Source: Oscillospiraceae bacterium
Lineage (GTDB): Bacteria > Bacillota > Clostridia > Oscillospirales > SIG627
Assembly: GCA_015063605.1 (NCBI GenBank)
Contig: SVTV01000026.1
Span: forward strand, 1 to 39,439
Length of the DNA: 39,439 nt
Reading direction: 5' to 3'
The notes under the pieces: model-generated
Seen by the model: the letters and a program-made list of their open reading frames with translations, nothing else
The model's database searches: none
What the model was told of the DNA's origin: nothing
In this document: positions 24,772 to 39,439 of the stretch, piece after piece
Layout of the letters: every line of letters starts with the position of its first letter
Position numbering within the stretch: position 1 is the first letter of the stretch
Made by a program: the position numbers and the translations under genes

Positions 24772-25872
24772 ATGAAAGTTGTATTACAGAATCTTACAAA
24801 AAAATTTCCCAACAGAAATAAAAAGATAAAGGAAGATGTAGTTGCGGTAAACGATTTTTCCTTCGAGATACCGGACGGTAAGCTCATCGGATTGCTCGGT
24901 CCTTCGGGATGCGGAAAAAGCACCACTCTCAATCTTATAAGCGGGCTTCAGAAGCCCACAAGCGGAAGGATATTTTTCGGTGACGATGACGTTACCGATC
25001 TGCCTGCGGAAAACAGAGGTGTAGGTCTCGTATTTCAGAACTATGCTCTTTATCCTCATCTTACTGTGAGAGAAAATATCACATTCCCTCTCGGAAATCT
25101 TAAGGGCAAGGACAAGCTTACAAAGGAGCAGATGAACGAAAAGGCTCTTGAAGCCGCAAAGCTTGTACAGATAGACGGCCTTATGGACAGAAAGCCCAAT
25201 GAGCTTTCCGGCGGCCAGCAGCAGAGAGTTGCCATCGCCCGTGCTCTCGTTAAAATGCCGCGCGTTCTTCTCCTTGACGAGCCTCTTTCAAATCTTGATG
25301 CAAGACTCAGACTTCAGACACGTGAGGAGCTTAAAAGAATACAGACCGAAACAAAAATAACCACCGTATTCGTAACCCACGATCAGGAGGAAGCGATGAG
25401 TATTTCCGACATGATCGTTGTCATGAAGGACGGCGTTATACAGCAGATAGGTGCTCCTCAGGACGTTTATGACGATCCGGTAAATCTTTTCGTTGCAAAG
25501 TTTTTGGGTACACCTCCCATAACCGTTTTTGACGGTAAGGTTGAAAAGGGCGCTCTTTATATAGGCAGTGACAAGATCTTCGACACGGACGCTCCCGACG
25601 GAGAGGTGTATGCTGCAGTCCGTCCCGAGGGCTTTATCCTCGACGATAACGGCACACTTTCCTGCGATCTCAAGAGAGTTGAGGTAATGGGCAGAGATGT
25701 CACCATCGTATCCGCAAACACTTATTCCCATAATCCTTCCATCCGTTCCATAGTCAGTGCGGAAAACAAGATAGACATAGCGTCAGCCTCTGTGCGCTTC
25801 TCCCTGAAGCCTTACAAAACTCATCTTTTCTCCAAAGCCGACGAAAGCAGAATTTATTACAACGTCAGATAA
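24772..25872 (+). CDS. Carbohydrate ABC transporter ATPase (MsmK/UgpC-like)
   Basis: The 366-residue protein has all ABC ATPase motifs: Walker A GPSGCGKST (about 44-52), Q-loop VFQNYALYPHLTV, signature LSGGQQQR (145-152), Walker B VLLLDEP (165-171) and the switch histidine in VFVTHDQEEAM. A C-terminal TOBE-like domain (about 240-366) is typical of the sugar-importer ATPases MsmK, MalK and UgpC. It powers uptake through the two permeases encoded next. As in other clostridia, it might also serve several importers, but here it sits within a complete operon. Confidence 0.93.
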   Translation: MKVVLQNLTKKFPNRNKKIKEDVVAVNDFSFEIPDGKLIGLLGPSGCGKSTTLNLISGLQKPTSGRIFFGDDDVTDLPAENRGVGLVFQNYALYPHLTVRENITFPLGNLKGKDKLTKEQMNEKALEAAKLVQIDGLMDRKPNELSGGQQQRVAIARALVKMPRVLLLDEPLSNLDARLRLQTREELKRIQTETKITTVFVTHDQEEAMSISDMIVVMKDGVIQQIGAPQDVYDDPVNLFVAKFLGTPPITVFDGKVEKGALYIGSDKIFDTDAPDGEVYAAVRPEGFILDDNGTLSCDLKRVEVMGRDVTIVSANTYSHNPSIRSIVSAENKIDIASASVRFSLKPYKTHLFSKADESRIYYNVR

Positions 25873-25909
25873 TGACGTGTAAAGCGTTTGCGAAAGGAAT
25901 GATTATAAT

Positions 25910-26800
25910 ATGGATAATAAAAATAATAAAGCATGGCTGTACCTTTTGCCCGCCATACTCTTTCTGACGGCATTTCTGGTATATCCTCTCATAGACGTTT
26001 TCGTGTATTCCTTTGAGGAAGGCTACAATTCCGCTTCTCAGACCTTCTTCGGCGTGGGAACGTACAATTACTCCTACGTGCTTCACGATCCCTATTTTCT
26101 CCGGGCTGTGCAGAACACCCTGATCCTGGTATTCATTACTGTTCCCCTTTCCACGGGAATCGCCCTTCTCATATCCGTGGGACTCAATTCCATAACGAAA
26201 TTGAAGGAGCTTTTTCAGACCGTTTATTTTCTCCCCTATGTGACCAACACATTGGCGGTAGGACTTGTTTTCATGATACTTTTTAAGAAAACACCTTATA
26301 CCGACGGTCTTGTCAATCTTATAATCAATTTCTTCGGAGGCTCCTCCGTTGACTTTATAGACGGACCATATTGGGCGAAAATGTTCGTTCTCTGCTTCTA
26401 TACCATCTGGGTCGTAATGCCCTTCAAGATACTTATATTCACAAGCGCATTGGCTTCCGTAAACAAGGATTATTACAATGCGGCAAAGGTTGACGGCACA
26501 AGCAGATTCAGAACCTTCATGAAGATAACTCTTCCCATGATATCTCCCACGGTATTTTATCTTGTTATCACGGGATTCATAGGCGCTTTCAAGGCGTACA
26601 GCGATGCGGTAGCTCTTTTCGGCACGAACCTCAATGCCGCCGAAATGAATACCATTGTAGGATACGTTTACGATATGCTTTACGGAGACAGCGGCGGATA
26701 TCCCTCCTACGCTTCTGCGGCGGCGATCATACTCTTTGTTATCGTCCTTACAATAACATGTATAAACCTTCTCGTAAGCAAGAAGCATGTTCATTATTGA
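25910..26800 (+). CDS. Carbohydrate ABC transporter permease 1 (MalF/UgpA-like)
   Basis: The 296-residue protein has six predicted transmembrane helices and the EAA-type coupling loop in NKDYYNAAKVDGTSRFRTFMKITLP, which contacts the ATPase. The N-terminal helix LYLLPAILFLTAFLVYPL is standard for this family. The gene is 37 nt after the ATPase and 18 nt before permease 2, both on the same strand. Confidence 0.92.
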   Translation: MDNKNNKAWLYLLPAILFLTAFLVYPLIDVFVYSFEEGYNSASQTFFGVGTYNYSYVLHDPYFLRAVQNTLILVFITVPLSTGIALLISVGLNSITKLKELFQTVYFLPYVTNTLAVGLVFMILFKKTPYTDGLVNLIINFFGGSSVDFIDGPYWAKMFVLCFYTIWVVMPFKILIFTSALASVNKDYYNAAKVDGTSRFRTFMKITLPMISPTVFYLVITGFIGAFKAYSDAVALFGTNLNAAEMNTIVGYVYDMLYGDSGGYPSYASAAAIILFVIVLTITCINLLVSKKHVHY

Positions 26801-26818
26801 TGAAAGGAGGAAGGCATT

Positions 26819-27688
26819 TTGGTAAACGATTACGAAAAAATTGAACGCTCTGCCGCCCTGCGGTCAAGAGTGATAAAGGTCATTGTATATTCACTTCTCA
26901 TTTTTTGGGGCTTGATGGTGCTTTTCCCCTTTTATTGGATGATACTCACCTCAATAAAAAGCTACGCTTCCTATAACTCGGAATACATTCCTCAATTTCT
27001 TACTCTTTCTCCCACGCTTCAGAACTATGCCGATGCTTTTACGGCGGTGCCTCTGGCAAAGTATTTTCTGAACACACTTATTTTCACCGTTATAACGACG
27101 GCTGTTATGATGATAGTCATCATTCCTGCTGCGTTCGCCTTTGCAAGACTTGAATTTGCGGGAAAGAATCTTCTTTTCACGCTTTTCCTTTCTCTTATGA
27201 TGATACCCAACGAGCTTGTCGTCATAACAAATTACGTTACCATTACGAATCTCGATCTGAGAAACACGTTCACGGGTCTTATCCTTCCCTCCGTCACATC
27301 TGTATTCTACATCTACCTTCTCAAGGAGAATTTTTCACAGATACCCAACGAGCTTTATTTTGCCGCCAAGGTAGACGGAACGAGCGATATGAAGTATCTT
27401 CTCAGGGTAATGATGCCCATATGCAGACCTACTCTGGTAACTATTGCCATATTGAAGATAATCGAGTGCTGGAACTCATACATCTGGCCCCGTCTTATCA
27501 CAGACAACGAGGCTTACTATCTTGTTTCCAACGGTATCCAGGAGATAAGAGAAAACGGCTTCGGACGTGAGAACATTCCCGCCATGATGGCGGCTGTCGT
27601 CGTTATTTCCGTGCCCCTTGTAATTCTCTTTCTGATATTCAGAAAGAAGATAATGGCGGGCGTTGCAAGAGGAGGTACAAAGGGATGA
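26819..27688 (+). CDS. Carbohydrate ABC transporter permease 2 (MalG/UgpE-like)
   Basis: The 289-residue protein has six predicted helices and the EAA loop in PNELYFAAKVDGTSDMKYLLRVMMP. The start is TTG 26819, supported by AAAGGAGG 8 nt upstream; no better in-frame ATG exists nearby. Its TGA overlaps the ATG of the binding-protein gene by 4 nt (ATGA), so the two are translated together. It forms a heterodimeric membrane pore with permease 1. Confidence 0.91.
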   Translation: MVNDYEKIERSAALRSRVIKVIVYSLLIFWGLMVLFPFYWMILTSIKSYASYNSEYIPQFLTLSPTLQNYADAFTAVPLAKYFLNTLIFTVITTAVMMIVIIPAAFAFARLEFAGKNLLFTLFLSLMMIPNELVVITNYVTITNLDLRNTFTGLILPSVTSVFYIYLLKENFSQIPNELYFAAKVDGTSDMKYLLRVMMPICRPTLVTIAILKIIECWNSYIWPRLITDNEAYYLVSNGIQEIRENGFGRENIPAMMAAVVVISVPLVILFLIFRKKIMAGVARGGTKG

Positions 27689-29286
27689 TTAATTACACAA
27701 AGCGCTTTTTATGCCTTATCCTCACTGTTATTATGCTCGTTCCCTGTCTTTACGGATGCCACGGCTCAAAGGGTCTTGAAAAGTTCGTTATACCCGAAAG
27801 CTTTGACGAAACAAAGACATATGAGATAACATTCTGGGCGAAAAACGATACAAATAAGGCTCAGACAAAGATATATCAGAAGGCGATAACAGATTTTGAG
27901 GCTCTTTATCCCAACGTAAAGGTAAATCTTCGCCTTTATACCGATTACGGCAGGATCTATAACGATGTTATAACCAATATCGCCACGCAAACAACACCCA
28001 ATGTGTGCATAACGTATCCCGATCATATAGCCACATATCTTACGGGTACAAATATCGTCGTTCCCCTGGACGAGCTTTTCGATAACGAAAAATACGGACT
28101 CGGCGGAAGCGAAGTGAGATTCGATTCCCCTCTCCGTGAGGAGATAACGGAACGATTCCTTAACGAATGCCGATTCGACGATCATTACTATGCTCTGCCC
28201 TTTATGCGCTCTACGGAAGCCTGCTATATAAACAAGACATACGTCGAGGCTCTCGGATACGAGATACCCGACGAGCTTACATGGGATTTTGTATGGGAAG
28301 TATCCGAGGCGGCTGCTGAAAAAGATGAAAACGGTGTGTTCAAGGTAAACGGACAGAAGGTACTGCGCCCGTTCATTTACAAATCCACCGATAATATGAT
28401 GATATCCATGTTAAAGCAGCTTGATGCGGGCTACTCCACTCCCGAGGGCGAGATACTTATATTCAACGATACCACGGAGGAGCTTTTGTTCGATATATCC
28501 GATCACGTTAAGAAGGAAGCCTTCTCCACCTTCAAGATAGACGGATATCCCGCAAACTTCCTCAACGCAGGTCAGTGCATCTTCGCCATTGACTCCACGG
28601 CGGGAGCCACATGGATGGGCTCCAATGCGCCCCTTATGGACATAGACGAGGATAATATCGTTAAGTTTGAAACGGTTGTAAGAACTATCCCCCAATTCGA
28701 TCCCGATAATAAGAAGATGATATCCCAGGGTCCTTCTGTCTGCGTTTTCAATAAGGCAGACCCGGACGAGGTTCTTGCTTCCTGGCTCTTCACTCAATTT
28801 CTTTTGACAAACGATGTTCAGATACCTTATTCACAAACGGAAGGATACATTCCCGTTACGGAAAAGGCGAGAAACAGCGATGTTTACAAGGAATACCTTT
28901 CCCGTGCGGGAGAGGACGACGACACCTATTATCAGGTAAAGATGGATGCGGTAAACCTTTTCCTCGATAATCTTGACAATACCTTTGTAACTCCCGTTTT
29001 CAACGGCTCCGCTTCCTTGAGAGATGCGGCAGGTCAGCTTATCGAGCATGTTACAAAGTCCATCAGACGAAAGGAGACGGTTGACGAAGAATACATGACT
29101 GCTCTTTACGAAAAGATCAATTCTCTGTACAGACTCGATCAAAAGGGCAACTCCACATCCTCCGAAAGAGTGGATCTCGGTCCCCTTCCTCCCACGGCTG
29201 TATTTCTTCTTTCCGCAATAGGTTTTGTATGGCTCGGTATTTTATTGTATATCGGTTTGAATATGATAAAAAAATCAAAAAAATGA
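27685..29286 (+). CDS. Extracellular solute-binding lipoprotein with C-terminal membrane anchor
   Basis: The 533-residue protein begins with a lipoprotein signal ending LYGC (lipidated Cys25). The body (about 45-470) is a type I carbohydrate-binding protein of the SBP_bac_1/8 kind (YEITFWAKNDTNKAQ, then NVCITYPDHIATYL and RPFIYKSTDNMMISML). It delivers a sugar to the permease pair. Unusually, residues about 505-530 form a hydrophobic helix (PPTAVFLLSAIGFVWLGILL) followed by KKSKK. The protein would thus be held by lipid at one end and a transmembrane helix at the other. It is about 100 residues longer than typical members. The ligand is unknown. Confidence 0.9.
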   Translation: MINYTKRFLCLILTVIMLVPCLYGCHGSKGLEKFVIPESFDETKTYEITFWAKNDTNKAQTKIYQKAITDFEALYPNVKVNLRLYTDYGRIYNDVITNIATQTTPNVCITYPDHIATYLTGTNIVVPLDELFDNEKYGLGGSEVRFDSPLREEITERFLNECRFDDHYYALPFMRSTEACYINKTYVEALGYEIPDELTWDFVWEVSEAAAEKDENGVFKVNGQKVLRPFIYKSTDNMMISMLKQLDAGYSTPEGEILIFNDTTEELLFDISDHVKKEAFSTFKIDGYPANFLNAGQCIFAIDSTAGATWMGSNAPLMDIDEDNIVKFETVVRTIPQFDPDNKKMISQGPSVCVFNKADPDEVLASWLFTQFLLTNDVQIPYSQTEGYIPVTEKARNSDVYKEYLSRAGEDDDTYYQVKMDAVNLFLDNLDNTFVTPVFNGSASLRDAAGQLIEHVTKSIRRKETVDEEYMTALYEKINSLYRLDQKGNSTSSERVDLGPLPPTAVFLLSAIGFVWLGILLYIGLNMIKKSKK

Positions 29287-31162: not shown

Positions 31163-31479
31163 TTTATTCTCCTGTCTTCAACTATTTCTTATTATATATA
31201 CAGCAGCCGGAAAATTGGGCGCGCAGACGCACAATTTTGTTAAGCGCATGTTTTTGTTCGCACAAAAGCTGTTTGCGCTTATTATATCATAAAATGTATT
31301 TTTGAACAATGGAGATCAACAAAAAGACGCACCACTTTTTGTTAAAGCAAAACCGATAAACCGTATGGTCGTTTCGTTCCTGCGAAGCGGCCCTTTTTAT
31401 ATTCTCCCCAATGTTTATTTTTTCAAAAAAAGGAAATGATATATAAAAACCTTAATGAAACGAAAGGACAGATGCAAAC
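31163..31479. promoter_or_regulatory. Divergent intergenic region with Nudix promoter and hairpins
   Basis: On the minus strand TTGTTC (31304-31309) and TATAAT (31281-31286), spacer 17, are a probable Nudix promoter. The leader contains AAAATTG/CAATTTT (31211-31217 with 31232-31238). On the plus strand a terminator-like hairpin, GGTCGTTTCG/CGAAGCGGCC (31367-31392) followed by CTTTTTAT, precedes the giant gene. No clear promoter for that gene is visible between hairpin and start. Confidence 0.55.
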
Positions 31480-34400
31480 ATGATGCAAGATGCATTGAAG
31501 GAATATATCATTGAAAAAAAGAGGCTTTGGGAAACGGAAGGAAAAAGGCTCTCTTATTCTGTATCGGAATACAAAAAATGTCTTTTCGAGCTGAAAAGGA
31601 AGGTGGGAAGCGACAGAAAAAACGATCCCGAAAACATATCACCCGACACAAAAAGAGAGCTTGACCAAAAATTATATATTTTTGAGGAATCATTCGCCTC
31701 TGTAAGATCACAAGGTACATTTCCGGATAAAAAAACGCTTTATATATGCGGAAGCATCCTGAGGGATCATATCTCCTTTTTTCTCGATGAAGCATCATTG
31801 AAGGAAGCTGTGCGCCTTATATACGAGATATGCTTTTCCGACGGCTTTTTCGGAGACGAAAACGGAAGGGATATTCCTTTCGCCTTTTACCTTGAAGCCA
31901 TTCGTCTGGCTTCCCTCTCAATAAGCGGGGATCACGGCTCCAAGAAACACATTTCGATAGGGCAATTATCCGATGCGGTAAGGCTCATATCGGAGTTTGA
32001 CTTTTCACCCTTTATCACGGCTTTCTCTCCGATAGAACGTCTGTGGCGTAACATGAATTGGAAGGGAGAGGATATATACAAAATATCCGACCCGAAAACG
32101 AAAGCACTGATGCGCAGCAAGGTGAGAAAGGAAGCTCTGCGAAGGAAAAAAAGCGAGGAAGAATTTTTAAAAGAGATATCTCTTTCGGAGGATCCCGACG
32201 AAGCGGTAAGGAAGCTTTGTATGAAAAGCTCCTCGGGTATCCCCTATTTTTCATGTATTGCAATTCTTTTTCTTTTGTTTTCCGCTTCCTTGCTTTGCAT
32301 TTTGACATACAGCGGAATAAAAACCGTTTTTTCCCTTCTCTTTGTTCTCATTACCGCTGTCCCTCTTTATTCGTCGGCAAAATTCTTGACCGATAATATT
32401 TTTTCAAGACTTATCCCCGCAGAGGTAATACCCAAGCTTTCGGAAAGCGCCTTTTTGCAGGTAAGAGAAAAATATCCCACTCTTGTGGTGATAACCTCTC
32501 TATTCGCAAGTGAAAAGGATGTAATAAGCACATTCCGCTCCCTTGAAAAAAGATACCTTTCATCCGAAGCCGTGGAGGAAAGCCACACCGATAGGACTCT
32601 CTTTTTCTCCGTTCTTGCGGACTTACCCGAAAAAAGCGGAGATAAGGAAGAAAACAAAAGCTTTACGGCAGAGGAAATATCGCTTCTTGAAAAAGCGGAA
32701 AGGGAGCTATCCGCACTGAATAAGAAATACGGAAATAATTTCTTCCTTTTCACGAGAGAAAGAAGCCTCTCCCCCGATGGAGTTTACAGAGGATGGGAAA
32801 GAAAGAGAGGTGCTCTTCTCAGCCTTTCCTCTTTTTTATTGAAAAAGAAAAGCGAGATTATTTGTTCGGGAAGCACGCTGCTTCCCCGTGAGCTTGAAGG
32901 CATAAAATACGTTCTCACCCTTGACAGCGACACGGAAAACACCTTCTGCGGGATCTATCCTCTCATTGCCGCAATGGTTCATCCCTTCAATACGCCGAAG
33001 GTGTCAAAAACGGGTGTAAAGCACGTATACGAAGGCTGCGCCATCCTTCAGCCCGCCATGAGGACGCTTCTCTCCTCCTCCCGAAAAACGCCCTTTTCCC
33101 TTATAAGCTCCGGATCGGGTCTCGATGTGTATAACGGTCCGTTTTACGACACGTATCAGACTGTATTTAAAAAAGGTATCTTCTGCGGAAAAGGTATCTT
33201 CGAACTTCACGCCTTCAATGAGGTATTGGAGGACGCCTTTCCCGAAAATATAGTATTGAGCCACGATCTCCTTGAGGGTGCACGACTTTCAGCAAGCTTC
33301 ATAAGCGAGGTGTCACTGTTCGACGGCACTCCCGCATCGGCTGTATCGTATATGAAAAGAGCCTCACGATGGATAAGAGGAGATATTCAGGCGCTCAGGT
33401 TTGCAGGGAAATACGTTCCCACTCCATCCGGCGAAAAGAAAAGGAATCCCATACGCGGAATATACCGCTTCGCACTTTTTGACAACGGATTACGTGCCGT
33501 TCTCCCCGTATCGGTCTTATCCGCTCTGCTTTTGTCGTCATTCATTCCCTCGCCGCAAGCTTCGGCGGTTCTTTCTCTTTTTGCGCTCTCCTTCTATATT
33601 CTCCCGCCCCTTGTGTCATTTTTCACACTTCTCCTTTCGAAAAACAGAAATCCCCTTCTCAGGCGTTTTCTCGTTAATACCTTAAGCTCAGTTTACAGAA
33701 GCTTTCTTGTATGCGCTTACAGGATATCATCATTGGCGGAAAACGCATATATATCCGCAGATGCCGTCATCCGCTCTCTTTACAGAATGAATATTTCAAA
33801 GAAGCGCCTTCTCGATTGGCAGACCTTTGCCCACACGGAGTCGGGAGGAAAAAATAAGGGTGTACTGTCATATTGTAAAACACATCCTTTCTCCTTGATT
33901 GCGGGCTTATCTCTAATTCTTCTTTCAAATAACCCTGTAACTTTATTATCGGGGCTTTTTATGATACTTTTTCCCGTTGTATCATACGCTTCCTCGATCC
34001 CATATTCGGACAAACGGTCAAAAAAGCTTACCGATAAACAAAGAAAGACGATATTGGAATATGCAAGGGATTCATGGAGGTATTTCGAAGAAAACGTAAC
34101 GAAAAAAACGAACTTTCTCCCTCCCGACAATGTAGCCGTCTCTCCCCGTGAAGTCACCGCCATGCGTACCTCTCCCACAAATATAGGTCTCTTTCTCACC
34201 TCTGCCGTCGCCGCCTTCGACATGGGCTTTACCGATCCGGAAAAGCTGTTCTTAATGCTTCACAGGACTCTTTCGTCCATAGAGGACATGAAAAAATATA
34301 AGGGACACCTTTATAATTGGTATGATATTTCGTCCCTTTCGCCTCTCGGTGATTTTGTTTCAAGCGTTGACAGCGGTAATTACTGCGCCTGTCTCATAAT

Positions 34401-37400
34401 CCTTGAACGGTTTTTGAAGGAATATAAGTCAGATATTCCCTTCGACCTTATCAAAAGAACGGAAGCTCTCAGAAATATGTGCGACTTCACCGTTTTTTAC
34501 GATAAAAAGAGAGGCTTTCTTTCAATAGGAATAAACGCTTCAACGGACGAACGGGATAAGATCTGCTATGACAGATATATGAGCGAATCGAGAATAACGT
34601 CATATATCGCATGTGCAGAGCGTCATACTCCCGTGTCAATGTGGTTTTCATTGGGAAGAACGCTTCTGGAAAGCTCCTTCTTCTTGGGATGTGCATCATG
34701 GAGCGGAACCTGCTTTGAATATTTCATGCCATGTCTTTTCTTACCCACTCCATCGGAAAGCTTCAATGAGGAATCATTGAAATACGCTTTCTCTCATCAG
34801 AAAAGGTATTCCTTCCCCTTTCCCGACAGCAAGGGAAAAAATGTATACGGTATAAGCGAAAGCTGTTATTATTCCTTTGACGGGGATATGAATTACAGAT
34901 ACAAGGCATTCGGTATCCCCGATCTTGCGCTTGATGAGGAAGCAGTAAGGGAAAAGCATCATATCATTTCGCCGTATTCGTCATTTCTCATGATGAGAAT
35001 GGCGCCCGATCAGATCCTGAACAATCTTTCCATATTGAAGGATGGAGGAATGTACGGAAAATACGGATTTTACGAAGCCGCCGATATAGGCTCTGTCCGC
35101 TCCCGTATCGTAAAATGCTTCATGGCGCACCACATCGGAATGTCACTTATGGCTTGCGATGATATACTCAATGAGGATATATTTCCGAAAAGATTCATGA
35201 GTGACGAAAAAATGGCGGGAGCGGAAAGCATTCTCGGGGAAAGTGTGCCTGCGGACGCTCCCGTTCACACATGGTCGAAGATGTTGAGAGATGATTCTCC
35301 GTATTCAAAGAGAAATTACCCCTCACGAAGATCGGATCATATGTCAAGAGTAATATACGGTAATGAAAAGCTTGTCACCTTAAGCGGTCACAATATAAAC
35401 GCCGTTGTGTCCGATAACGGTACTTTCTTCCTTTCCACCCGTTCAAGGGAATTGACGGATATCACAAAGCGTCCTTTATCTCCGAATTCCCACGGAGGCA
35501 TCGTTCTTTACGGTAAATGTAAAAATGAGGTCATATCCTCCTTCATGACGGAAAACAGCAGACGGACATTTTCTCATACGGAAAATTCCTGCACGCTCAT
35601 CTGCTCCTTGGGAAGCGACAAGCATTCCTCGGTCACCTTCGAAAGTATCCTTTCAAGGGAAACCCGCACCTCACTGTTTTCCGTATCCTCCACCGCTTCC
35701 CTCGGCTTACAAAAGGCGGGGATATATATAGATGTTTGTGCGGACACATATGAAGCCTTCCGCTCTCATCCCGCATTTTCATCCATGTTCGTTTTCTGCG
35801 AAAAATTCTCCGACAAAGGGATATACCTTTTTGAGAGACGTCAAAGAGAGCGTGAAAGATCTCCGTTTTTCATGGCTGTGGGAGCGGTGATCCCCGATCT
35901 GAACGGGAAAAGAGCAGAGATCGGATACGAAAGCTTTTTGCGAAACGATCTTGCAACTCTTTCCTCTTATCCCGATACCTCATCAAGACTCATTATGTCG
36001 GAGAAGGAAAAAGAAAACCGTAAGGAGAAGCAAGGATCGTTTCCCATGCTCTCACCGGAATTTCTTCTTACAGCCTCGGTGAAAAACGATAAATTCAAGG
36101 AGTGTGATCCCGTAAAGAAGATCGTATTCATCATCTCCTGCGGAAGCACAGCAAGTGAAGCCGTAAGCGCGTTTGAAAAGACTGCGGAAAGGATAAAAAC
36201 GCCCTTTGTGACAGATATCACCATTCATCCGTCGGAGATGTCTGCGGAGGATCTGTCCTTCGGCTCGCTCTTGCTGAAGAATACCTTTTATAAGGTATTC
36301 CCGCCCAAAATTTCTGAAGAACGCTCTGTCATATCCCGCGGATTTTCAAAAAACGATCTGTGGTCTCTCGGTATATCGGGAGATGTGCCCATAATAACAA
36401 TGCGTGTCACCGACAGAACCCCGAAGAAGGATATACTTTCCATTCTCCGTCTTCACTCCGCACACCGAAGTGCGGGCAATATATACGATCTTGTATTTTC
36501 CGTAAACGAGCCGGGAGGATATTATACCGCCGCTTCCTCAACTCTTCGGGGAATGATAGAAAGAGAAGGCTTTTCGTATATGATGAATTCGAAGGGCGGA
36601 ATTTTTATCATAATAAACGAAAACGGCTCGTCGGAGATCCTTTTCAGATGCTGTTCAAGGCTTTTTTTCAACGAGCTTTCAGAAATACCGAAGCTTTTGA
36701 GTGCAGATTCTGCCTCTGTGCGAACAATTGCTCCCTGCGGAATTGCCGAAAAGTCTACTTTCTTATGTGATGCCTTTCCCAAGGTGTTGCCCGATACGGG
36801 ATTCTCCGATTGCGGATACACCTTCGAAAGAGACAAAAAGCCGCCTGTTCCTTACGCATTTCCCATTGCTTCTCCGAAATTCGGATGTATCGTTACGGAT
36901 TCAAGCCTCGGATTTACCTGGTGGAAAAATTCACAGCAAAGCCGCCTCACCTTCTGGGACGGCGGTATCTATTCTGATTCTCTTTTGTCGGAATCTCTTT
37001 TCATTGAGATCAATGATGCAACGGGAGTGAGAAAAACAAGCTGTGATCTTGTAAAGAACTCAAAGCGCATATCGTATTCCATGGGCAGAGCCGATTATTA
37101 CGGCATGGTCAAGGATACGGGATACAGAATATCCGTTGCCGCACACCCGAAGCTCGCAGTAAAAGCCGTAAGTCTGACCGTCTTTCCTCCCATATCGGAG
37201 GAAGCACGCAGTATAAGAGCCGTATACACCCTCACAAAGATACCCGGAAATATTCCCGCAGGAGCTTGTGTTCTGACTGCGGAGCGCAAAGAGCCATCCG
37301 CCGTAATCCTGAGAAACGTTCCTTACGAAGAAAATACTCCCGATATTTTCATTAAGGGAAAGGGCGGAAGATTTGATATTATTCCTTGCAAAAACGGAAA

Positions 37401-38922
37401 TACCGCTGTGAGTCTGGAGACAAAGATATCAAAAGAGTCGGAAATGACATTTTTCATCGGCGTTTCCTCCTCTCCCGAGCAGGAAAAATATCTTTCCGCT
37501 TATACCTCCCTTTACGGTATCGATAAAATTTGCGGTGAATACAAAAATAAGATATCCAAGCTTCTTCCGCCAATGGAAAAGAACATCAATATGACGGAAG
37601 AACGTCATTCCTTTTTCAATTTCTGGCTTCCCTATCAATCCGTGGTTTGCAGAATGCTTGCAAGATCGGGGCTGTACCAATCGGGAGGCGCATACGGCTT
37701 CCGAGATCAGCTGCAGGATTGCCTTGTATATCTTGACACCTCGCCCGAATACGCAAAGCGAATGATATTGAAAATGGCTTCTCGTCAGTTTGAGGAGGGA
37801 GACGTTCTTCATTGGTTTCATATTTTCACGAAGGACGGAAGAGCGGTGACCTCGGGAATACGTTCGACCTGCTCGGACGATTATCTGTGGCTCATTTTCG
37901 TAGTATGTGAGTATGTCGATAAAACAAGAGACAGGGACATTCTCGATATACGTGTCCCCTTTCTTTCGGCTCCCGAGCTTTCAAGGGATGAAAGAGAACG
38001 TTATATCAATGATGCACGTAATGGATCAAGCGGTACCGTAAGAGAGCATCTTTTCAGAGCGGTATCTCTGTTTCTCAAGAGAGGTACGGGCAAGCATTCT
38101 CTTGCATTGATGCTGGGCGGAGATTGGAATGACGGAATGGGAAAAATAGGCGACAACGGTGGCGAAAGCGTGTGGCTTACAATGTTTGCCATGATATGCT
38201 TTTATTCTCTTTCCGTCTGCATCAAGCATGAGGATCCCGATAAAGCTAAAAGGCTCTGCTCCGTCGTTTCCGAAATGGCTGAGGCGGTCAACAAATACGG
38301 CAGGGGAGAAAAATGGTTCGGGAGAGCATATTACGGCGACGGCACTCCCGTAGGCTTCGACACCTCGATCAAAAGCGAATGCTCCATTGATGCCATCTCC
38401 CAAAGCTTTGCCATGTATATGTATCATAAGATACCGTTTCTGCAAAGCGAGGAATTGCTGAGCTTTATAAAGCTTTCTCTGAACTGTGCCTACAACGAGC
38501 TTTTCGATGAGGAAAAGGGGATAATAAAGCTGTTTAATCCTCCCTTCTCCGATACGCACCATATCAAAGATCATGACCCCGGTTATATAAAGTGCTACCC
38601 CGAGGGAATGAGAGAAAACGGCGGTCAGTACACCCACGGCGCATTATGGCTTGCGGATGCCTTTCTTCTTTGTGCGGAGCATGATAAGAGTCGGGAAAGA
38701 CTTATTCTTCTCGAAAGAGGAAGAAAGCTCTTCAATGCTCTTATTCCGTACAAAAAGGCGCAAAGCGATGCGTATATGCGTGAGCCTTATGTGCTCTGTG
38801 CCGATATTTACTCCAACAAGGAATACAACGGTCAGGGCGGATGGAGCTGGTACACGGGTTCTGCGGGATGGATGTACAGAATTTATCGCTATCATATTGA
38901 CAAATTGAAGGATTTTATGTAA
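31480..38922 (+). CDS. Cyclic beta-1,2-glucan synthase-like giant membrane enzyme
   Basis: A 2480-residue protein with the order of NdvB/ChvB enzymes: an N-terminal region, transmembrane helices (about 250-310), a GT84-type glycosyltransferase (about 330-640; LTLDSDTENT near 480, SHDLLEGARL near 593, RWIRGDIQALRF near 630), more helices (about 665-835), a glucoamylase-like domain (about 850-1230), beta-sandwich regions (about 1290-2000) and a GH94-type barrel (about 2045-2480) with GGDWNDGMG, Asp2215 and Asp2218 marking the catalytic acid site. In proteobacteria these make osmoprotective cyclic glucans. It is shorter than the 2800-plus residues usual there. AAAGGA lies 13 nt before ATG 31480, and ATG 31483 is equally possible. 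The product is inferred. Confidence 0.87.
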   Translation: MMQDALKEYIIEKKRLWETEGKRLSYSVSEYKKCLFELKRKVGSDRKNDPENISPDTKRELDQKLYIFEESFASVRSQGTFPDKKTLYICGSILRDHISFFLDEASLKEAVRLIYEICFSDGFFGDENGRDIPFAFYLEAIRLASLSISGDHGSKKHISIGQLSDAVRLISEFDFSPFITAFSPIERLWRNMNWKGEDIYKISDPKTKALMRSKVRKEALRRKKSEEEFLKEISLSEDPDEAVRKLCMKSSSGIPYFSCIAILFLLFSASLLCILTYSGIKTVFSLLFVLITAVPLYSSAKFLTDNIFSRLIPAEVIPKLSESAFLQVREKYPTLVVITSLFASEKDVISTFRSLEKRYLSSEAVEESHTDRTLFFSVLADLPEKSGDKEENKSFTAEEISLLEKAERELSALNKKYGNNFFLFTRERSLSPDGVYRGWERKRGALLSLSSFLLKKKSEIICSGSTLLPRELEGIKYVLTLDSDTENTFCGIYPLIAAMVHPFNTPKVSKTGVKHVYEGCAILQPAMRTLLSSSRKTPFSLISSGSGLDVYNGPFYDTYQTVFKKGIFCGKGIFELHAFNEVLEDAFPENIVLSHDLLEGARLSASFISEVSLFDGTPASAVSYMKRASRWIRGDIQALRFAGKYVPTPSGEKKRNPIRGIYRFALFDNGLRAVLPVSVLSALLLSSFIPSPQASAVLSLFALSFYILPPLVSFFTLLLSKNRNPLLRRFLVNTLSSVYRSFLVCAYRISSLAENAYISADAVIRSLYRMNISKKRLLDWQTFAHTESGGKNKGVLSYCKTHPFSLIAGLSLILLSNNPVTLLSGLFMILFPVVSYASSIPYSDKRSKKLTDKQRKTILEYARDSWRYFEENVTKKTNFLPPDNVAVSPREVTAMRTSPTNIGLFLTSAVAAFDMGFTDPEKLFLMLHRTLSSIEDMKKYKGHLYNWYDISSLSPLGDFVSSVDSGNYCACLIILERFLKEYKSDIPFDLIKRTEALRNMCDFTVFYDKKRGFLSIGINASTDERDKICYDRYMSESRITSYIACAERHTPVSMWFSLGRTLLESSFFLGCASWSGTCFEYFMPCLFLPTPSESFNEESLKYAFSHQKRYSFPFPDSKGKNVYGISESCYYSFDGDMNYRYKAFGIPDLALDEEAVREKHHIISPYSSFLMMRMAPDQILNNLSILKDGGMYGKYGFYEAADIGSVRSRIVKCFMAHHIGMSLMACDDILNEDIFPKRFMSDEKMAGAESILGESVPADAPVHTWSKMLRDDSPYSKRNYPSRRSDHMSRVIYGNEKLVTLSGHNINAVVSDNGTFFLSTRSRELTDITKRPLSPNSHGGIVLYGKCKNEVISSFMTENSRRTFSHTENSCTLICSLGSDKHSSVTFESILSRETRTSLFSVSSTASLGLQKAGIYIDVCADTYEAFRSHPAFSSMFVFCEKFSDKGIYLFERRQRERERSPFFMAVGAVIPDLNGKRAEIGYESFLRNDLATLSSYPDTSSRLIMSEKEKENRKEKQGSFPMLSPEFLLTASVKNDKFKECDPVKKIVFIISCGSTASEAVSAFEKTAERIKTPFVTDITIHPSEMSAEDLSFGSLLLKNTFYKVFPPKISEERSVISRGFSKNDLWSLGISGDVPIITMRVTDRTPKKDILSILRLHSAHRSAGNIYDLVFSVNEPGGYYTAASSTLRGMIEREGFSYMMNSKGGIFIIINENGSSEILFRCCSRLFFNELSEIPKLLSADSASVRTIAPCGIAEKSTFLCDAFPKVLPDTGFSDCGYTFERDKKPPVPYAFPIASPKFGCIVTDSSLGFTWWKNSQQSRLTFWDGGIYSDSLLSESLFIEINDATGVRKTSCDLVKNSKRISYSMGRADYYGMVKDTGYRISVAAHPKLAVKAVSLTVFPPISEEARSIRAVYTLTKIPGNIPAGACVLTAERKEPSAVILRNVPYEENTPDIFIKGKGGRFDIIPCKNGNTAVSLETKISKESEMTFFIGVSSSPEQEKYLSAYTSLYGIDKICGEYKNKISKLLPPMEKNINMTEERHSFFNFWLPYQSVVCRMLARSGLYQSGGAYGFRDQLQDCLVYLDTSPEYAKRMILKMASRQFEEGDVLHWFHIFTKDGRAVTSGIRSTCSDDYLWLIFVVCEYVDKTRDRDILDIRVPFLSAPELSRDERERYINDARNGSSGTVREHLFRAVSLFLKRGTGKHSLALMLGGDWNDGMGKIGDNGGESVWLTMFAMICFYSLSVCIKHEDPDKAKRLCSVVSEMAEAVNKYGRGEKWFGRAYYGDGTPVGFDTSIKSECSIDAISQSFAMYMYHKIPFLQSEELLSFIKLSLNCAYNELFDEEKGIIKLFNPPFSDTHHIKDHDPGYIKCYPEGMRENGGQYTHGALWLADAFLLCAEHDKSRERLILLERGRKLFNALIPYKKAQSDAYMREPYVLCADIYSNKEYNGQGGWSWYTGSAGWMYRIYRYHIDKLKDFM

Positions 38923-39007: not shown

Positions 39008-39439
39008 ATGTTACGTAAAAACACAAGTACCTTGCACCGTATGATCTCACTTGCGGTATCGCTTCTTATGATATTTGCACCCTGCGCCGCAGTATTATCA
39101 TATCCCGTCAGCGGTGCGGCATCAGATGAGAAGCCCCTTAAAACAAGGGTAACATATTATACGGATGAGGAAAGAGCCATTATCAAAGAAAATGCCGAAG
39201 GCTACTATGCGGGCACAAAGACCTCATATATAAATGCCGCAGAAAAATATCTTAACTATACATATGAAGATCTTTGGTCCGTACTGCCTTCTCAGCTTGT
39301 ACCGAGATCAGCCGCCGTCAATCAGCCCAAGGGCTGTCTCAACTGCGGAAAGGCTATCGACGCATACGGAAACTATCCGTACACCTTCAATACGGATTCC
39401 GCTCCGTGGAAATTGACCTGCCCCTCATGTAAGATGCAG
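39008..39439 (+). CDS. Heparinase II/III-like secreted protein, partial
   Basis: 144 codons to the window edge, frame open. ATG 39008 follows GAAAGGA. A signal peptide is clear (positive start LRKNTSTLHR, hydrophobic ISLAVSLLMIFAPCAAVL, cleavage near SGAAS). The mature start has TYYTDEERAIIKENAEGYYAG, then a CxxC (CLNCGKAIDAYGNYPYTF) and another (PWKLTCPSCK). Paired CxxC motifs with this GNYPY/PWKLTCP wording are typical of the N-terminus of secreted heparinase II/III-like enzymes, polysaccharide lyases for uronic-acid glycans. That family call is from memory of the pattern. The rest, including the catalytic region, lies beyond the window. Confidence 0.72.
   Translation, partial: MLRKNTSTLHRMISLAVSLLMIFAPCAAVLSYPVSGAASDEKPLKTRVTYYTDEERAIIKENAEGYYAGTKTSYINAAEKYLNYTYEDLWSVLPSQLVPRSAAVNQPKGCLNCGKAIDAYGNYPYTFNTDSAPWKLTCPSCKMQ

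Follow-up and report, generated by a model that had tools for sequence, protein, structure and literature searches.

Most of what is known about cyclic beta-1,2-glucans comes from Rhizobiales, where these sugars are periplasmic and act in host interaction.

For the cyclic beta-1,2-glucan synthase (CGS) of Agrobacterium tumefaciens (Cgs or ChvB; PDB 8rf0, 8rf9), roles have been assigned to residues of the GT84 domain and to a primer tyrosine, and a four-helix motif forms the dimer contact (PMC10901819). According to the parts of the literature consulted, the first CGS cyclisation (CY) domain to be crystallised was that of Thermoanaerobacter italicus (TiCGS, PDB 8wy1), the founder of GH189. This organism is called Gram-negative in the consulted part of a review; NCBI taxonomy places it in Bacillota, Clostridia. 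Extra helices between alpha4 and alpha5 are described, in the part of PMC12102758 consulted, as conserved within GH189 only and as separating GH189 from Group 2. Two further CGSs are annotated in monoderm anaerobes, and their likeness to the enzyme studied here is one of annotation. Extracts of the respective papers, which mention no activity for either, report that Cthe_1221 of Clostridium thermocellum is present at a low level in exponential cells and responds to the carbon source, and that C. tetani has a lysA-CGS operon. We also drew on parts of PMC10834661, PMC11842490, PMC3492117, PMC6362236, PMC3990059, PMC8303734, PMC7229112 and PMC5584792.

Domain structure of the window CGS

The window is the whole stretch of DNA analysed, 39,439 nucleotides, and is one entire contig (G000:C20) of an Oscillospiraceae genome (2.67 Mb in 61 contigs, 96% complete). 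A search of this genome gave a single CGS match, the ORF in the window. Its features are listed below, with TM-like stretches taken from hydropathy and Pfam matches from a search at E <= 0.001.

31480..38922, + strand: CGS ORF, 2480 aa, ATG start, free of internal stops
32230..32394, + strand: TM-like stretches 1-2 (aa 251-305)
32467..33399, + strand: GT84 domain (aa ~330-640)
33130..33132, + strand: codon of Y551, the counterpart by alignment of A. tumefaciens primer Y694
33487..33642, + strand: TM-like stretches 3-4 (aa 670-721)
33913..34002, + strand: TM-like stretches 5-6 (aa 812-841)
34027..35274, + strand: compact GH189-type CY domain (aa ~850-1265)
34369..34587, + strand: stretch D964-E1036, 72 residues, extra-helix insertion absent
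34585-34587, + strand: codon of the putative acid/base E1036
34858-34860, + strand: codon of the putative nucleophile E1127
35332..36789, + strand: GP1 and Rossmann-like part (aa ~1285-1770), with helix/strand alternation at aa ~1558-1730
36826..38895, + strand: GH94 supersandwich and catalytic parts (aa 1783-2472), with D2076 and the putative catalytic acid D2218
aa 1073-1241: Pfam Glycoamylase PF10091 (1.2e-11)
aa 1789-1901: Pfam GH94 supersandwich (4.9e-8)
aa 2043-2472: Pfam GH94 catalytic domain (1.1e-66)

A preliminary description of this DNA had taken the gene for a CGS-like enzyme that retains a GT84 part, a glucoamylase-like part (today GH189) and a GH94-like part, and the Pfam and PDB matches agree with it. 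A PDB sequence search aligned most of the protein with A. tumefaciens Cgs (8rf9/8rf0, E 1.7e-229); it also retrieved 8wy1, the cyclisation domain of T. italicus, at E 1.7e-82. The GT84 part is covered by no Pfam family; searched alone, it retrieved 8rf0 at 1.9e-48. DUF3131 scored 5.6e-4, under that family's cut-off, and NCBIfam gave 0 matches on the CGS. The domain order is that of A. tumefaciens Cgs. The six TM-like stretches have a 2+2+2 layout, and a seventh hydropathy peak lies within the GH94 domain. The protein is divergent, with about 36% identity even to its best matches within its own family.

Functional residues and proposed mechanism

Residue numbers were taken from two publications and transferred through PDB sequence alignments. 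In the GT84 domain, D381, R443, D482, D484, D596, R630 and R633 correspond to A. tumefaciens D527, R586, D624, D626, D739, R773 and R776, and Y551 aligns with Y694, the autoglucosylated primer tyrosine. In the CY domain, D964 corresponds to A. tumefaciens D1104, while E1036, E1080, E1127, H1217 and H1218 correspond to T. italicus E1356, E1400, E1442, H1536 and H1537; all five residues named for the retaining mechanism in the TiCGS publication are thus present. D2076 and D2218 of the GH94 domain match A. tumefaciens D2393 and D2528. The reading as a CGS therefore holds at residue level too, with 16/16 functional residues kept in the alignments with ChvB and TiCGS.

The same 16 residues are identical in 20/20 sequences from the order, the window CGS counted and the stop-split locus L034 excluded. 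We also compared a set of 137 rows covering GT84 and CY in several phyla, with partial, duplicate and split loci left out; these rows represent 134 loci, the genes of G268, G149 and G239 each being present twice. Among the matches listed, D482, D484, D596, R630, D964, E1036 and E1080 are kept in 137/137 rows. Position 551 is Y in 136/137 (X in one), D381 is kept in 136/137 (A in one), E1127 in 135/137 (two gaps), and H1217 and H1218 in 127/137 (ten gaps), again among the matches listed.

The window CGS probably works as the published A. tumefaciens and T. italicus enzymes do, giving ring-shaped beta-1,2-glucan, and the activity, linkage, ring size and topology given below are modelled on those enzymes. 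At the cytoplasmic face of the membrane, the GT84 domain would glucosylate Y551 and then, with UDP-glucose as donor, build a beta-1,2-glucan onto this residue. The C-terminal GH94 domain would shorten the chain by phosphorolysis, and the GH189-type domain would cut and close it by retaining transglycosylation, with E1127 as the nucleophile and E1036 as the acid/base; the released ring would contain ~17-25 glucoses. The missing CY insertion, the divergence of the protein, the hydropathy peak within GH94 and the moderate confidence of the C-terminal model speak against this reading.

Host genome, gene surroundings and occurrence in Clostridia

Omp85 (PF01103) had 0 matches in the host genome and was found in 7/14 control genomes; the monoderm call is made from this one outer-membrane marker (Omp85/BamA) in a 96% complete genome. 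The sporulation markers SipL, SpoIVA and SpoIIIAE were all found. Because it lacks an Omp85 match and carries these three markers, the host is probably a monoderm endospore former, and, in contrast to A. tumefaciens, it is not expected to have a periplasm. It had been described as an apparent monoderm anaerobe; the Omp85 result bears out the monoderm part, and anaerobic life is likely, judged by the class of the host, Clostridia, which it shares with T. italicus.

The preliminary description had also presented a CGS in such a cell as surprising, which does not stand. A search of relatives gave a CGS match in 26/38 genomes, the host included (in G027 in the GH94 part only), and the GT84 and CY part was found in 113/293 genomes of the class, again with the host. 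Since so many class genomes are positive and CGSs of Clostridia have been published, there is nothing new or unusual about a CGS in a monoderm anaerobe. Named carriers among the matches listed are Acetanaerobacterium elongatum, Clostridium methylpentosum, Geosporobacter subterraneus, Paenibacillus, Bacillus, Xanthomonas and Collimonas.

Genes for export or breakdown of the glucan had been suggested as neighbours to look for, and the window ORFs covered by the scan included no recognisable beta-1,2-glucan exporter or beta-1,2-glucanase. Among these ORFs are genes for an alpha-L-rhamnosidase, a DegT aminotransferase, two AraC-type regulators, a flavodiiron-type protein, a ferritin-like protein and a ZIP transporter, and the gene of a two-domain NUDIX protein is divergently oriented to the CGS. 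ABC_membrane had ten matches in the host genome, none of them assigned as an exporter of the glucan, and 0 on the CGS contig, and an Rfam scan of the window gave two tRNAs and nothing else. Two further features of the window are:

24772-29286: binding-protein-dependent ABC importer
31367..31392, + strand: terminator-like hairpin with a T-run, 88 bp 5' of the CGS start codon

The hairpin could be a candidate leader or attenuator; one was found against 0.5 expected in shuffles, which alone is not significant. No + strand gene was called directly 5' of it. Downstream of the CGS, an ORF at 39008-39439 begins like a signal peptide, contains two CxxC motifs and is cut off by the contig end after 144 aa; Pfam and NCBIfam gave 0 matches on it.

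Co-occurrence with sporulation genes

In the class sample, SpoIIIAE was found in 111/113 genomes with a CGS and in 110/180 without (Fisher p 1.9e-15). For SpoIVA alone, the counts are 106/113 and 112/180 (p 1.9e-10), a weak match in G117 having been removed before counting, and SpoIIIAE is present in 5 of the 7 SpoIVA-negative CGS genomes. Either marker occurs in 111/113 CGS genomes, compared with 114/180 others. CGS thus occurs in the class almost only with sporulation genes, which hints at a candidate role in spore formation. Only two genomes of the class sample, G096 and G326, carry a CGS but lack both SpoIVA and SpoIIIAE; the CGS genes in question (L230 and L232) have long, open frames of 2935 and 2728 aa.

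Shared descent was partly corrected for by family codes, used in place of a species tree. In a table compiled by hand for either marker, seven families include both spore formers and others; CGS occurs in four of the seven, in spore formers only (stratified z 3.56). The CGS counts in spore formers and others are 3/3 and 0/3 in f31, 1/5 and 0/7 in f42, 1/1 and 0/3 in f57, and 1/1 and 0/4 in f64. By SpoIVA alone, 13 families are mixed (z 3.73), four of them each with one SpoIVA-negative CGS genome. Counted by family, the association is weak: CGS occurs in 36/55 mostly sporulating families and 7/20 others (p 0.033). Standalone GH94, used as a control, showed no sporulation bias (28/112 against 18/68, p 0.86). 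Among genomes <=2.0 Mb, listed by hand, 26/70 spore formers and 1/24 others carry a CGS (p 0.0014).

In 5/20 order loci the CGS adjoins SipL, which is the sole SipL copy of the genome; in four of these loci SipL follows the CGS on the same strand, and in the fifth the two genes converge. The five loci are limited to two related genera and may go back to a single event, and the window genome has both SipL and SpoIVA on contigs other than the CGS contig. Apart from the CGS itself, no family occurs in more than 5/20 order loci or 4/20 class loci. Among the neighbours recognised by eye are CwlD-like genes (L108, L114) and a SpoIIE-like gene (L121). Sporulation genes make up a few per cent of a genome, and the CwlD- and SpoIIE-like neighbours were set aside as sporulation evidence because they show no excess over this share. 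At L118, L119 and L122, a fused nucleotidyltransferase/phosphomutase-type gene (Pfam scan: L118) lies directly upstream of the CGS on the same strand, and possibly supplies the sugar nucleotide.

Upstream regions were scored for sigma-E promoters with a consensus, and with some start codons miscalled. The spoIVA gene of the window genome has a sigma-E-like promoter, TTATATA-14-CATATAAT, with 0/100 shuffles scoring as high. Upstream of the window CGS none stood out (94/100 shuffles as high). At a threshold of <=5/100 shuffles, 1/20 CGS genes were positive, and also only 5/19 spoIVA controls; the spoIVA promoters of class genomes look too diverse for training. Four f65 loci have a CATA-containing upstream motif, seen by eye, which fits sigma-A and sigma-E equally.

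Possible roles of the glucan

We give about an even chance to a vegetative role, in which the glucan would depend on the carbon supply and serve as an osmolyte or reserve, in the cytoplasm or at the cell surface, while the sporulation link would be a by-product of shared ancestry and of genome streamlining where sporulation has been lost. In the parts of the papers known to us, Cthe_1221 is expressed during growth and responds to the carbon source, and C. tetani has a lysA-CGS operon; these reports and the fused nucleotidyltransferase/phosphomutase-type gene upstream of three CGSs are consistent with such a role. The sporulation bias, however, is explained neither by standalone GH94 nor by small genome size.

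The forespore has two membranes during engulfment. The space between them, or later the coat, could replace the periplasm of Rhizobiales, and it is possible, though doubtful, that the CGS of monoderm spore formers has a function in the spore, a role that would add to the enzyme chemistry proposed above. The marker counts point this way, both for SpoIIIAE and for either marker, as do the confinement of CGS to spore formers in the four mixed families that hold it, the unbiased GH94 control, the persistence of the trend in small genomes and the five SipL-CGS loci. Against it, 114/225 genomes with either marker are without a CGS, the family-level link is weak, and with SpoIVA alone four families have a CGS genome negative for the marker. 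The SipL loci fall in two related genera, with SipL and SpoIVA both off the CGS contig in the window genome, and the CGS neighbourhood is mostly unconserved. The sigma-E test found nothing standing out before the window CGS, although it also missed most spoIVA controls. The extracts on C. thermocellum describe a low CGS level in exponential cells and a response to the carbon source, and among the matches listed CGS also occurs in phyla without endospores. We keep our estimate low because common descent and coupled gene loss are a sufficient explanation. For the same reason we consider the boldest form unlikely, namely that the ring glucan is a spore molecule of the forespore intermembrane space or coat, with the CGS kept for a temporary two-membrane cell.

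If the co-occurrence is functional, a sugar of plant symbionts and Brucella would take part in spore making. The tie to sporulation is a lead worth following. No link between CGS and sporulation was found in the parts of the literature consulted, a search with most subscription journals outside it, and the link may have been published elsewhere.

A compact cyclisation domain

As the preliminary description stated, the window CGS is shorter than ChvB, at 2480 compared with 2818 residues, because an insertion in the CY domain is missing and the N-terminal part is reduced. Alignment with A. tumefaciens Cgs begins at aa 265 of the window CGS and aa 417 of Cgs, so that the N-terminal part is ~150 residues shorter. 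D964 and E1036 are 72 residues apart, whereas the corresponding span is 196 residues in A. tumefaciens Cgs and 229 in TiCGS (D1127 to E1356). In 20/20 order sequences this span is 69-74 residues, all of them compact.

The missing residues are the counterpart of the four-helix motif of A. tumefaciens Cgs and of the extra helices of GH189. Since the dimer-contact insertion is absent, the compact type probably does not form the back-to-back dimer seen in A. tumefaciens. Since the extra helices are missing, we name the window domain GH189-type and compact, as distinct from a typical member of that family.

The predicted CY model (pLDDT 94.3) has the fold of TiCGS (8wy1_A: Z 61.0, rmsd 1.4, 405 residues aligned, 39% identity), and its scores against beta-1,2-glucanase structures are Z 42.6 or less. 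TiCGS is its best PDB match, in a comparison set without a solved GH193 (Group 2) structure or sequence. That the compact domain became a beta-1,2-glucanase, so that the enzyme releases linear glucan, is improbable: the helices that set GH189 apart from Group 2/GH193 in the consulted part of PMC12102758 are absent and the CY fold is common to beta-1,2-glucanases, but the domain retains the nucleophile and the acid/base of TiCGS as well as counterparts of E1400 and of the two histidines, the sequence match is 2.2e-86 to TiCGS and 6.1e-9 to the GH192 glucanase 8xuj, and the structural scores favour TiCGS by Z 61 to 42.6 or less.

We divided the 137 rows by the D964-E1036 span into compact (<100 residues), intermediate (111-133) and long (>=165). 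Among the matches listed, 92/137 rows are compact, 5 intermediate and 40 long, or 91/134 compact per locus, counts that favour relatives of the window CGS since the wide search listed 80 of 592 confirmed loci. Four of the five intermediate rows belong to Bacillaceae or Paenibacillaceae. On a tree of the matches listed, the compact label requires 5 changes, compared with 37.8 in shuffles. The compact rows listed are from Bacillota or the same class as the host, except for two Bacteroidota-labelled MAG contigs and three unranked rows. The two contigs (L137, L138) carry near-identical compact CGSs nested among Bacillota in the tree, a placement due to gene transfer or misbinning. We conclude that the compact form is a real CGS type, and that many natural CGSs can do without the extra helices that have been described as a GH189 feature and as the dimer contact.

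C-terminal half and split CGSs

The model of the C-terminal half is of moderate confidence (pLDDT 69.3). It aligns end to end with the GP part of A. tumefaciens Cgs (8rf0_A 1547-2784: Z 32.9, rmsd 3.3, 1076 residues aligned), and in this model the subdomain order, including the Rossmann-like insert, appears to be kept. The half also resembles the 1,2-beta-oligoglucan phosphorylase of Lachnoclostridium phytofermentans (5h3z: Z 30.8 over 890 residues), which, unlike the window CGS, lacks GT84, cyclisation and TM parts.

In six genomes the CGS is split into two ORFs (L223-L227 in G226, G067, G184, G287 and G317, and L115 in G239). ORF 1 contains GT84, the cyclisation domain and the first phosphorylase parts, and ORF 2 contains GH94; the two are on the same strand and overlap or lie <=6 bp apart. 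The breakpoint runs from ~aa 1650-1736 to 1774-1787 in window numbering. These two-gene CGSs offer natural separate halves for enzymology.
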